This document shows positions 20,665 through 29,530 of a stretch of 64,000 nucleotides of DNA, piece by piece. Numbering within the stretch: the first letter of the stretch is position 1; every line of letters begins with the position of its first letter. The notes beneath the pieces were generated by a model. That model was not told the origin of the DNA and did no database searches. It saw nothing but the letters and a program-made list of their open reading frames with translations. Both the position numbers and the translations under genes were made by a program. This stretch comes from Gammaproteobacteria bacterium (lineage in GTDB: Bacteria > Pseudomonadota > Gammaproteobacteria > Burkholderiales > Rhodocyclaceae), in NCBI GenBank assembly GCA_029289235.1, contig JARFTZ010000048.1:62001-126000 (forward strand). Direction: 5' to 3'.

Positions 20665-20978
20665 GGCTACTCCTTCGTGGGATCAGAAACACCGGCAGGC
20701 AATAGCGATATCCGTGCCATACAAAAGTTTTTCCTAATAAACAGCGAAGTAGAAAAAGCATCGGAGAATCGGGGTGAAGACCAAGGGGCTTTATGTCGCA
20801 AATCAACGACAGAACTTCAATCTTTTCGGCATAACCTCGGAGTATCAATGCGTTGCAGAGTCGCCGAATGGCGACATCGCCCCGGTTCGTTCGATTCCCG
20901 GCGCTTGACTGGCCGTTTTTCGGATCGCATTCTGCTACGCTTGCACATCTCCTGATGCGCGCCAAAACATCTTTCCCC
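20665..20978. other. Divergent intergenic region between bactofilin and sensor kinase
   Basis: About 310 bp with no credible gene. It contains the dyad GTCGCC-GAAT-GGCGAC (20860-20875), which may be an operator, and a good -35-like TTGACT (20905-20910) facing the kinase gene with only a weak -10 (CATTCT, 17-bp spacing). Confidence 0.4.
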
Positions 20979-22391
20979 ATGATCCGTGTGTCGTTTCGAC
21001 AGAGCATGCTGGCAGGTCTTCTGCTGATCGTCGCGTTGCTCGGCGGTGCGAGCGTGCGCAGCTGGTATCTGCTTGAACACTTTGCCGCCCAGAGTCGGGC
21101 CAACGGAGCGCTCGCCTTGCGCATCAGCGCTTCGACGCAGGAACTGGCAGAACGCACGACGGAGCTCGAACGCAGCGCCCGGCAATACATGGTGCTCGGC
21201 GACCCGGGCGTGCTGGCGCGTTTTGACGCGCAGCTGACCCATGCCCTCGGCGCCATCGGCAACCTCGACTCACTCCCCGGGCAGCCGCTGGCATCGCAGC
21301 CCGTCGACTGGCGGCGAGCGGTCGATGAACTCGGCACATCACTGCATCGCAAGGATGCCGAGGACAACCTCGCCAACGCCCTGACCCGGCTCGCGACGAT
21401 CAATGCCGCCCTGGACGCCCAGGGCAAGCGCTGGATCGAGAACCAGCATGGCGCGCTGCTCGGCGAGCTCGAGGAAAACCGGCTGCGTCTCGGCACTCTG
21501 GTGGTCGCCGCGATTGCCACGGCGTTCCTGATCGCTCTGGCGATGAGCTGGTGGCTGTCCCGCCCCATCGATACCATCGAGGAGGCCATCGAACGCCTGG
21601 GGGAAAGCCGCCTGGGCGATCCGGTCGAAGTCGGCGGCCCCGCCGATCTGCGCCAGATCGGCAAGCGGCTCGACTGGCTGCGGGTACGCCTCGGCGAACT
21701 CGAGGCCGAGCGGGAAAAGACGCTGCGCCATGTCTCGCACGAGCTGAAGACGCCGTTGACCGCCCTCCGCGAGGGAGTTGCGTTGCTGCAGGAAGAGATC
21801 GCCGGGCCGCTGACGGCGGCGCAACGCGAAGTGGCGGACATCCTCGACGCCAACGCCAGATCGCTGCAAGGGCACATTGAAAGCCTGCTGCGACTGAACG
21901 CCGTGTCATTGGGTACGCGGCGCGTCCATCGGCGGCCGGTGAACCTCAAGCGGCTACTCGGTGAAGTCGTTCAGGAACGGGAACTGCAGGTCCAGGCGCG
22001 GCGCGTACAGATCCAGTGCAACGCGCCTTCGACCCCCGGCCTGGAGGATGCGGACAAGCTGCGCGTGATCATCGACAACCTGCTCTCGAATGCCATCGAT
22101 TTCAGCCCGGACGGCGGTGTCGTGCGTCTGGATGCGAGAATTGACGGACCAAGGCTGCGTCTTTCGTGCATCGACCAGGGTCCAGGCGTCGCCGCGGAAG
22201 ATGCCCAGAGGATTTTTTCCCCGTTTGTTCAGGGTCTGCGCCCCGCACCGGTTCCCCGGCAAGGCAGCGGGGTAGGCTTGTCGATCGTGCGTGAACTCGT
22301 CACGGTCATGGGCGGCAGGATCGAGCTTGTCACGCCGGGAAGCTCCGGCGCCCATTTCGAGATCGAATTGCCATGGACCCCCGCCAGTTGA
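20979..22391 (+). CDS. glrK: Sensor histidine kinase, GlrK/QseE-like
   Basis: 470 residues from ATG 20979; an in-frame ATG at 20955 is possible and neither has a clear ribosome site. Layout: TM1 (about 8-27), a helical periplasmic region, TM2 (about 168-190) ending in WWLSRPID, a HAMP-like linker, HisKA with HVSHELKTPLTALREGVALL (His254), and a HATPase domain with DNLLSNAIDFSP, CIDQGPGV and GSGVGLSIVREL. The H-box closely resembles E. coli GlrK (QseE). It is followed by a QseG-like lipoprotein and a GlrR-like regulator, the same three-gene order as qseE-qseG-qseF, so it should phosphorylate that regulator. The stimulus here is unknown. Confidence 0.88.
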   Translation: MIRVSFRQSMLAGLLLIVALLGGASVRSWYLLEHFAAQSRANGALALRISASTQELAERTTELERSARQYMVLGDPGVLARFDAQLTHALGAIGNLDSLPGQPLASQPVDWRRAVDELGTSLHRKDAEDNLANALTRLATINAALDAQGKRWIENQHGALLGELEENRLRLGTLVVAAIATAFLIALAMSWWLSRPIDTIEEAIERLGESRLGDPVEVGGPADLRQIGKRLDWLRVRLGELEAEREKTLRHVSHELKTPLTALREGVALLQEEIAGPLTAAQREVADILDANARSLQGHIESLLRLNAVSLGTRRVHRRPVNLKRLLGEVVQERELQVQARRVQIQCNAPSTPGLEDADKLRVIIDNLLSNAIDFSPDGGVVRLDARIDGPRLRLSCIDQGPGVAAEDAQRIFSPFVQGLRPAPVPRQGSGVGLSIVRELVTVMGGRIELVTPGSSGAHFEIELPWTPAS

Positions 22392-22399
22392 ACTCCGCC

Positions 22400-22954
22400 A
22401 TGAAGACGAACCGTCCACTGCTCCGCCGCTGGCCATTGCTGGCACTGACTGGTTTGCTCACAGCCTGTGCCGCACTTCCACCGGAAGGGGAGCAGGCTCC
22501 CGTGATTCCTCCCGCCACCGCAATCCAGGTCAATGAAATGGCGATGCTGCCGCTGCTTGGCTACTACCACCTGCTGCAGCGGATGACGCCGGGAGAGCTG
22601 ACAAGGGAACGCCAGACGCTCGCCAGGCTGCCGTCGTCACCGTCGGTGCAACTCCGGCAGGCGTTGCTCTACGGCATGCCGCGAGCCACCACCGACCTGG
22701 CGCGCGCGCAAACGATTCTTGAGGCCGTCCTGCGCTCGAACGCGCCGGAGGCGGCCAGCCTGCATCCGCTGGCCAAGCTGCTCGCGACGCAATATCAGGA
22801 ACGCCTCCGTAGCGAAACCCAGAACGAACGCCTGAGCCAGCAGCTCAAGGAAACCCAGCGCAAGCGCGACGAACTGCAGGAGAAGATCGACGCGCTGACC
22901 GACATCGAGCGCTCGATACCCATTCGCCCCAACGCCGACAAACCGGCATTCTGA
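22400..22954 (+). CDS. QseG-like outer-membrane lipoprotein
   Basis: 184 residues from ATG 22400, with a lipoprotein signal (LTGLLTACAALP, Cys at about residue 24). The mature protein has a helical region LPLLGYYHLLQRMTPGELTRERQ and a charged coiled coil near the C-terminus (about 135-165, rich in Gln, Glu, Lys, Arg). Its place between the GlrK-like kinase and GlrR-like regulator matches qseG (yfhG), whose product in E. coli is an outer-membrane lipoprotein that affects kinase activity. Sequence identity alone would not make the call; position, size and lipobox do. It lies 8 nt after glrK and 7 nt before glrR. Confidence 0.75.
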   Translation: MKTNRPLLRRWPLLALTGLLTACAALPPEGEQAPVIPPATAIQVNEMAMLPLLGYYHLLQRMTPGELTRERQTLARLPSSPSVQLRQALLYGMPRATTDLARAQTILEAVLRSNAPEAASLHPLAKLLATQYQERLRSETQNERLSQQLKETQRKRDELQEKIDALTDIERSIPIRPNADKPAF

Positions 22955-22961
22955 CCGCCCT

Positions 22962-24353
<1,392 letters not shown>

Positions 24354-25146: not shown

Positions 25147-25638
25147 ATGTCGAGGAAACTGCTCGTGGGATTCTTCTCCGGACTTCTCGCCTTCCTCCTG
25201 CCGGGCTGCGACAGCGTCAAGCTTGAGAAGCTCCAGCCCGGCATCACCACCATGGCGCAAACGCGCGAGGTCATGGGGCCGCCGACGATGGAGTGGCTGG
25301 ACAGCGACGGATCGGTCAGCTGGGAATACCCGCGCACGCCGAACGGCGTTGTCAATTACATGATCGACTTCGGCCCGGACCGGATCCTGCGCGAGGTCCG
25401 GCAGGTGCTGACCAAGGAGAATTTTGCCCGGGTGAAGGAAGGGATGACCCGCGAGCAGATCCGCCGCCTGCTCGGCCAGCCCGCCAGCGAACAATATTTC
25501 TCGCTGAAGCGGGAATACGTCTGGGACTGGAAGACGAAATCGGAAAACTCCTACGACTACTTCTTCGACGTGTATTTCGATGAGCAGGGCCATGTCACCC
25601 GGACGGGCACCCATTACAAGCCGATTTCTGGCAACTGA
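25147..25638 (+). CDS. BamE/SmpA-like outer-membrane lipoprotein
   Basis: 163 residues with a lipobox (LLPGCDSV, Cys at about 21) and two motifs of the SmpA/OmlA (BamE) fold: LQPGITTMAQTREVMG and VKEGMTREQIRRLLGQP, each followed by a Trp-rich strand (EWLDSDGSVSWEY; YVWDWKTK). This apparent duplication distinguishes it from BamE proper, which has one copy. It may be a divergent paralogue of the outer-membrane assembly factor, tethered to the outer membrane. The gene ends 26 bp before the metH promoter. Confidence 0.8.
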   Translation: MSRKLLVGFFSGLLAFLLPGCDSVKLEKLQPGITTMAQTREVMGPPTMEWLDSDGSVSWEYPRTPNGVVNYMIDFGPDRILREVRQVLTKENFARVKEGMTREQIRRLLGQPASEQYFSLKREYVWDWKTKSENSYDYFFDVYFDEQGHVTRTGTHYKPISGN

Positions 25639-25664
25639 TATCCCCGTGGCTACCCCCGTTAATA

Positions 25665-25693
25665 TTGACAATCAAGGGCTTGGCGCGTAGATT
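25665..25693 (+). promoter_or_regulatory. Sigma70 promoter of metH
   Basis: A perfect -35 TTGACA (25665-25670), exactly 17 bp, and a -10 TAGATT (25688-25693). Transcription would start near 25700, leaving a leader of about 150 nt before metH that holds the SAM-II riboswitch and a terminator. Confidence 0.8.
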
Positions 25694-25721
25694 CGGGCCT
25701 CTTTCCGGCTCGTCGCCGGGA

Positions 25722-25776
25722 CCGCGCCGATTTGAAGTTCAGCTTGCAGGCGCGTTACAAATCTGGCTAAAGCGGG
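25722..25776 (+). promoter_or_regulatory. SAM-II riboswitch upstream of metH
   Basis: The sequence fits the SAM-II aptamer pattern. P1 is CGCGCC (25723-25728) with GGCGCG (25749-25754). The loop begins GATTT and ends CTTGCA. After P1 come a conserved AAAT (25759-25762) and GGCTAAAGCGGG (25765-25776). The loop GATTTG (25729-25734) is complementary to CAAATC (25758-25763), consistent with the pseudoknot/triplex core. SAM-II binds S-adenosylmethionine and represses methionine genes. It is followed 22 nt later by an intrinsic terminator and is preceded by a small hairpin (CCGGC-TCGTC-GCCGG, 25705-25719). Recognised by eye against remembered consensus; a covariance search would settle it. Confidence 0.85.
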
Positions 25777-25797
25777 CGCGATTCGATGACTTTGCCG

Positions 25798-25836
25798 AAA
25801 CCCGTTCGCTGACTGTGCTGAACGGGTTTTTTCTTT
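25798..25836 (+). terminator. Intrinsic terminator in the metH leader (riboswitch expression platform)
   Basis: AAACCCGTTC (25798-25807) pairs with GAACGGGTTT (25820-25829), with a 12-nt loop, followed by TTTCTTTT. It sits between the SAM-II aptamer and the metH ATG, so it is well placed to be the regulated attenuator. Confidence 0.88.
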
Positions 25837-25849
25837 TCGAGGTTTTTCC

Positions 25850-29530
<3,681 letters not shown>

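Follow-up and report, generated by a model that had tools for sequence, protein, structure and literature searches.

The window, i.e., the whole stretch of 64,000 nucleotides that was analysed, derives from a Rhodocyclaceae genome of 3.8 Mb in 63 contigs and contains a leader region between a lipoprotein-like gene and metH, which encodes the cobalamin-dependent methionine synthase. MetH was identified by two NCBIfam models with high scores (NF007024.0, 2138.9 bits; TIGR02082.1, 1702.9 bits), which supports the proposal of an earlier reading made from the sequence alone that metH is the target gene of a SAM-II riboswitch. For the ORF upstream of the leader an OsmE-like match is weak (26.3 bits compared to a cut-off of 65). 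Further upstream, in 20853-24353, ORFs follow consecutively that were read from their proteins as a histidine kinase, a small lipoprotein-like protein and a response regulator. The features of the locus are:

25147..25638, + strand: upstream gene, ORF of 163 aa, lipoprotein-like, ending 5' of the promoter
25665..25693, + strand: promoter TTGACA-N17-TAGATT (TTGACA 25665-25670, spacer of 17 nt, TAGATT 25688-25693)
25714..25791, + strand: match to SAM-II (RF00521), core aptamer 25723-25775
25723..25728, + strand: P1 5' strand CGCGCC, pairing with 25749-25754
25729-25733, + strand: GATTT, from sequence reading
25737..25743, + strand: loop strand GUUCAGC, the P2 5' strand and possible second antiterminator strand, complement of 25817-25823
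25743-25748, + strand: CTTGCA, from sequence reading
25748..25764, + strand: single pair A25748-U25764 of the last loop base with the tail, covarying in leaders
25749..25754, + strand: P1 3' strand GGCGCG, pairing with 25723-25728
25759-25762, + strand: AAAT, from sequence reading
25765-25776, + strand: GGCTAAAGCGGG, from sequence reading
25766..25778, + strand: GCUAAAGCGGGCG, conserved P2 3' strand in the tail
25771-25778, + strand: AGCGGGCG, proposed antiterminator strand in the tail, predicted to pair with 25803-25810
25797..25832, + strand: intrinsic terminator, arms 25797-25809 and 25817-25830, U-tract 25827-25832
25803..25810, + strand: CGUUCGCU, segment of the terminator 5' arm, pairing with 25771-25778 in the proposed antiterminated state
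25839..25842, + strand: Shine-Dalgarno-like GAGG of metH, outside the aptamer, from sequence reading
25850..29530, + strand: metH, cobalamin-dependent methionine synthase, 1226 aa, named by NCBIfam

The Infernal search with the Rfam model of SAM-II (RF00521), which had been proposed as a check, resulted in a significant match at 25714-25791 on the forward strand (45.6 bits, E 4.5e-7, gathering score 36), and this is the single Rfam match above the gathering score in the whole window on both strands. Moreover, a covariance model of our own, built from 20 leaders with the copy of the window included, scores 75.4 bits at 25723-25775, and a chance match was rejected as the second-best place in the 64-kb window reaches only 9.1 bits. 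The conserved SAM-II motifs GAUUU, CUUGC, AAAU and GCUAAAG are present in 25729-25772, and all motifs named in the sequence-only reading were found at the positions it had assigned to them, supporting the identity of the aptamer. Judged by its sequence the element is a SAM-II riboswitch, real but ordinary, for which binding of SAM is predicted.

The conservation of the pairing was analysed in leaders of related bacteria. With the SAM-II core pattern 170 hits were obtained, located in 160 of 163 loci, and 155 unique leaders remained after removal of 3 duplicates and of 12 hits that could not be parsed (the latter include L036, L037 and L118, clustering with metH, and L101 and L160, clustering with metX, which the pattern could not frame). 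The outer P1 pair of these 155 leaders is CG in 58, AT in 49, TG in 24, GC in 10 and TA in 6 cases, with GT (1), CA (2) and TT (2) as rarer states and three further leaders besides. In 20 diverse aptamers the same pair is CG in seven, AU in five and GC, GU, UA and UG in one case each, with three others among the 19 that have letters at this position, while the third pair is CG in 19 and UA in one, the inner P1 pairs being almost invariant. Over nine pairs the covariation score of these 20 aptamers is 0.219 compared to 0.103 +/- 0.018 for shuffles, a value reached by 0/500 shuffles, and slid pairing gives at most 0.061. Furthermore, the base at the end of the loop and that two positions 5' of GCUAAAG combine as G-C in 143, as A-U in 9 and otherwise in 3 of the 155 leaders, and A25748-U25764 of the window is one of the minority A-U cases. 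A loop-tail pair of this kind was predicted for SAM-II (PMC2258182), and A25748-U25764 appears to correspond to it. In the pseudoknot helix P2, the scheme of which was placed by hand, 25737-25743 pairs with 25772-25777 leaving A25741 unpaired. Over its six pairs 96.4% of the cells are paired in 19 metH leaders, no pair showing a change on both sides in this set, and the two inner pairs are paired to 85% in 20 diverse leaders. Covariation in relatives is seen for the outer P1 pair and the loop-tail pair, but not as two-sided change in P2 of the 19 metH leaders.

The aptamer is framed by a promoter and a terminator, as had been claimed. TTGACA-N17-TAGATT is the sole promoter-like site listed by a scan of 25400-26200 (10/12 matches), shuffles of this region yielding 0.2 +/- 0.5 sites, and it recurs in relatives: TTGAC[AC]-N15..19-TAnnnT occurs at most 75 nt 5' of P1 in 29/47 unique metH leaders, parsed from relatives with the window included, versus 1/2350 shuffles. 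The transcript of the metH leader would probably start approximately 25 nt 5' of P1. Downstream of the aptamer, AAACCCGTTC and GAACGGGTTT form a 10-bp stem (25798-25807 / 25820-25829) followed by T-rich sequence, with a loop of 12 nt or, if two more pairs are added, with a bulged U and a loop of 7 nt, and the hairpin folds at -17.4 kcal/mol. A simple terminator scan of 25400-26200 listed 0 sites, which we attribute to its rule of a loop of 3-8 nt, as the stem has a 12-nt loop or a bulge. With a tight rule (fold <= -10 kcal/mol, at most 2 unpaired bases per arm and a T-run behind) terminators are present in 45/47 metH, 44/51 metX, 19/22 metZ and 32/35 other unique leaders and in 5/188 shuffled metH controls; this rule was used instead of a looser one, which accepts 47/47 metH leaders but also 65/188 shuffles. 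In three loci with SAM-II before a metK-like gene (L069, L075 and L153) the terminators hold UUUUAGC, the complement of GCUAAA of the aptamer. The GAGG of metH is located 66 nt downstream of the conserved GCUAAAG and beyond the terminator, which argues for a termination platform rather than for occlusion of the ribosome binding site, as proposed earlier, with termination in dependence of SAM as the predicted outcome.

For an attenuator of this type a competing pairing is expected, and the complementarity of the terminator arms to the P2 strands was compared with that of shuffled arms, excluding the 15/155 leaders without a tight terminator. In 26 representatives that are less than 80% alike, the set on which the idea of a pairing between tail and terminator 5' arm was formed, the mean z is -1.15 +/- 0.30 for tail and 5' arm and -0.87 +/- 0.22 for loop and 3' arm, with -0.02 +/- 0.19 (loop and 5' arm) and +0.54 +/- 0.17 (tail and 3' arm) for the controls. 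In 16 independent leaders from named genomes, unlike those of the first set, tail and 5' arm reach z -1.5 +/- 0.30 (p <= 0.05 in 6/16), loop and 3' arm do not clearly replicate (-0.39 +/- 0.21; 0/16 at p <= 0.05), and the controls are at -0.6 +/- 0.30 (3/16 at p <= 0.05) and -0.01 +/- 0.26. As the tail:5'-arm pairing replicates and the loop:3'-arm pairing is weak, the former was chosen as the proposed antiterminator. For the window alone, pairing of the real arm with the tail is equalled by 14/100 shuffles of the terminator arm, and the 19-leader alignment shows no covariation between tail and 5' arm. The complement of loop and 3' arm is present in 94.7% of the cells of these 19 leaders with weak covariation, i.e., a single compensatory pair, shared by two leaders that are related to each other, and GCUGAAC of the metH type keeps a U that forms the bulge of the terminator but would pair with A25741 (16/19 leaders).

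Swapping partners between leaders gives pairings of loop and 3' arm as good as the real ones in 0 of 5000 trials for metH (45 leaders), 3703 for metX, 3252 for metZ and 1300 for the rest, the corresponding values for tail and 5' arm being 1090, 520, 208 and 287, so that among the metH leaders the tail:5'-arm pairing is not weakened by swapping. For the 26 representatives the values are 789 (loop and 3' arm) and 235 (tail and 5' arm) of 5000. Compared base by base, three bases of the loop and the terminator 3' arm are matched as well by 303, 0 and 66 of 5000 permutations in 114 leaders and by 1199, 56 and 929 of 5000 in 79 unique combinations. It is possible that the loop:3'-arm pairing is an addition to the antiterminator in the metH type. 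In minimum free energy folds of the growing transcript, the energies of which ignore pseudoknot and Mg, AGCGGGCG and CGUUCGCU are paired at both of the sampled lengths that stop short of the 3' arm, namely 92 and 98 nt if counted from P1 and 122 and 128 nt if counted from 25693. At the next sampled length the terminator is the minimum free energy fold, and for the transcript of 116 nt from 25693 the minimum belongs to another long-range fold. AGCGGGC is also part of the P2 tail strand, and for this reason SAM binding and antitermination would be mutually exclusive.

These data lead to a model in which the SAM-II riboswitch turns metH off by transcription attenuation, to which we assign a probability of roughly 85%. 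At low SAM the tail AGCGGGCG (25771-25778) would be free and would pair with the newly made CGUUCGCU (25803-25810), thereby blocking the terminator 5' arm and allowing RNA polymerase to continue into metH. With SAM bound, the tail would be sequestered in P2, the terminator 25797-25832 could form and transcription would end 5' of the metH Shine-Dalgarno sequence. The identity and covariation of the aptamer, the recurrence of promoter and terminator and the complementarity of tail and 5' arm above shuffles were computed here. From these we infer SAM binding, SAM-dependent termination, the start site and the order of folding.

An uncoupled, constitutive terminator, which yields a short riboswitch RNA and holds metH at a low level, with SAM acting on RNA stability or at another point, is unlikely, although a terminator of this type, lacking a predicted antiterminator, is described for the metA SAM-II of S. 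meliloti (PMC9373788), and the covariation of the antiterminator in the leaders analysed here is weak. Against it, the complementarity between tail and terminator 5' arm exceeds that of shuffles in both sets of leaders, and their pairing is predicted for the intermediate transcript. Translational control is known for the SAM-II class (PMC10907184; PMC9373788), and by analogy to the metX SAM-II of the Sargasso Sea metagenome, for which such a switch was proposed, SAM might hide the ribosome binding site. Within the same order metX SAM-II leaders of translational type (L071, L077, L163 and perhaps L083) are found: these four of the 155 leaders, all before metX, have AGG and a possible start codon directly 3' of GCUAAAG, and L083 also has a tight terminator. 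In the window, however, the tail GCGGGC has no adjoining start codon and the metH Shine-Dalgarno sequence is found only past a terminator; a translational switch is very improbable here, and occlusion was rejected for this locus as the ribosome binding site is too distant from the aptamer. Even slighter is the chance that the aptamer is a relic or a sensor of a ligand other than SAM: the SAM-II core motifs are present, P1 and the loop-tail pair are maintained by compensatory change, and metX (55), metH (51) and metZ (22) make up most of the genes downstream of the 170 hits of the pattern in relatives. Transcription attenuation by SAM stays the preferred reading.

Regarding the role of the switch in the cell, TIGR01371 (the B12-independent MetE), the one family searched for this purpose, has no match in the source genome (0/1, 95% complete), suggesting that SAM-II at metH may gate most of the final step of methionine synthesis. 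The same genome has a second RF00521 match with 33.5 bits, i.e., below the cut-off, which precedes a 375-aa ORF clustering with metX. Six cobalamin riboswitches (RF00174) above the cut-off were observed on its contigs C42, C48 and C60. At E <= 0.001 RF00521 matches in 36/59 relatives, 151/297 genomes of the family and 178/399 of the order, and above the Rfam cut-off in 16, 53 and 70 of these, respectively. The ORFs behind the core-pattern hits form, next to the three main clusters, smaller groups; the names metX, metZ and metK were given by reading the proteins instead of by family search.

The kind of device found here was already known, as promoters and terminators were reported for SAM-II before. 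Corbino et al. (2005; PMC1273637) describe, in the text consulted, SAM-II promoters just 5' of P1 and terminators 3' of P2 and mention a Bordetella example in a figure legend. The metA SAM-II of Agrobacterium (SAM_alpha, RF00521; PMC1273637) and its relatives share with the window the core, P1, the pseudoknot and a near-consensus promoter before P1 as well as, in many examples, a terminator between pseudoknot and ORF, whereas in the window the target is metH and the host is beta-proteobacterial. The view of the sequence-only reading that SAM-II is mainly described in alphaproteobacteria is incomplete, since terminator-linked SAM-II in beta-proteobacteria was reported in 2007 (PMC2258182); the setting is thus less unusual than was implied. 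That report concerns the same class, platform and broad group as the window, as a statement on the class in the part of the text available, which does not name metH. In S. meliloti, where the SAM-II leaders of metA and metZ were studied (Scheuer et al., 2022; PMC9373788), transcription termination is predicted for that of metZ, the short RNA of which rises at high SAM. It shares the predicted SAM-driven termination with the window, but gene and lineage differ. In the literature searched, mainly open text without figures and thus a weak basis for absence, metH was not found as a SAM-II target; with the window the list of SAM-II-linked genes is extended by metH, in a defined clade.

Leyn et al. 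(2014; PMC4239095) state in the sections consulted that SAM_alpha occurs 'only in Rhizobiales and Rhodobacterales' and announce a beta-proteobacterial 'metXZ RNA element' as new and distinct from SAM_alpha. This element combines a pseudoknot with a terminator, an antiterminator being a speculation of the authors, and precedes metXW in 30/35 genomes; in Methylophilales, Nitrosospira and Thiobacillus it precedes metZ (PMC4239095). It shares pseudoknot and terminator with the window and occurs in taxa for which SAM-II leaders were observed here, while metX and metZ are the only genes named for the element in the text seen. A search with the SAM-II core pattern over named genomes covered at least 117 stretches and gave at least 118 sites, namely, among the matches listed, 38 before metX, 30 before metZ, 8 before metH, 1 before metK and 41 without an assigned gene; four of the metH sites are doubtful (L199, L212, L245 and L272, approximately 28-34% identity) and were not taken as MetH. 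Methyloversatilis thermotolerans (L265) is a named strain in which SAM-II precedes metH. Among the matches listed the pattern precedes metX in genomes named Cupriavidus, Ralstonia, Pandoraea, Bordetella, Lautropia, Herminiimonas, Herbaspirillum, Tepidimonas and others, and metZ in Nitrosospira, Nitrosovibrio, Methylophilales HTCC2181, Novimethylophilus and Sideroxydans; in a MAG named Bordetella parapertussis (L170) it precedes metZ. SAM-II leaders resembling the metXZ element in genes, taxa and anatomy include L268, L195, L205, L177 and L242. As genes, groups and anatomy are shared, the orphan metXZ element of beta-proteobacteria, compared by its published description, is very probably SAM-II, and it would thereby probably gain a ligand.

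Less expected is the presence, in related bacteria, of another type of switch at this position before metH. The first 350 aa of MetH have a match in 112/121 genomes of the family, and 110 of 119 MetH matches gave upstream regions (G090 and eight partial or weak matches were omitted; that of L298 has only 7 nt 5' of the match, too few for a leader to be seen). SAM-II is present in 25/110 of these regions, 21 found by pattern and 4 more by our 20-leader model, among the latter L341 approximately 400 nt before metH and L311 with a long insertion; 12 of the 25 also reach the Rfam gathering score, and L343 (16.1 bits, E 0.011) was not counted. The SAH riboswitch (RF01057), which has ON logic, is found above its gathering score in 46 of the other 85 regions (46/110; by batch 6/20, 11/20, 17/20, 11/20 and 1/5), including L283, L285, L292, L297, L300 and 41 further loci. 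It is present in 0/25 of the SAM-II-bearing leaders, none of the 110 regions having both, and 39/110 have neither (Fisher p = 2e-7 for exclusivity, ignoring kinship). Thus gene position and family are the same as for SAM-II of the window, and aptamer and ligand differ. In Comamonadaceae the occurrence of SAH riboswitches at metH is already known (PMC4239095).

MetH N-termini that are 88-89% identical to that of the window are preceded by SAM-II at L282 and L284 and by the SAH riboswitch at L283 and L285. In a tree of MetH N-termini with 57 rows, to which 29 loci were added because they bear SAM-II (two without a row), the SAH label needs 2 changes, forced by well-supported branches. The SAH pair L283 and L285 groups with a SAM-II clade with a support of 92/87, below the starred level, and the other SAH group is located among rows with neither switch, so that a direct exchange is suggested once and not twice. 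We lean towards the view that the metH leader of Rhodocyclaceae acts as a socket for interchangeable sensors, either SAM-II (end product, OFF) or SAH (by-product, ON), with at least one replacement among close relatives that would have switched control between clearing of the by-product and feedback by SAM, leaving the gene unchanged. Close relatives with a SAM or a SAH switch at the same metH site represent a natural experiment.

The source genome itself has an SAH riboswitch before an ORF read as ahcY. At another locus (L394:216-398) a 6S RNA (RF00013, 56.1 bits) is located directly 5' of a metH. Tandem SAM-II, already described in the text of PMC9481103, is also seen in relatives, with SAM-II-like cores at 237-280 and 381-422 on the forward strand of L151 and at 240-284 and 404-454 on the reverse complement of L162.
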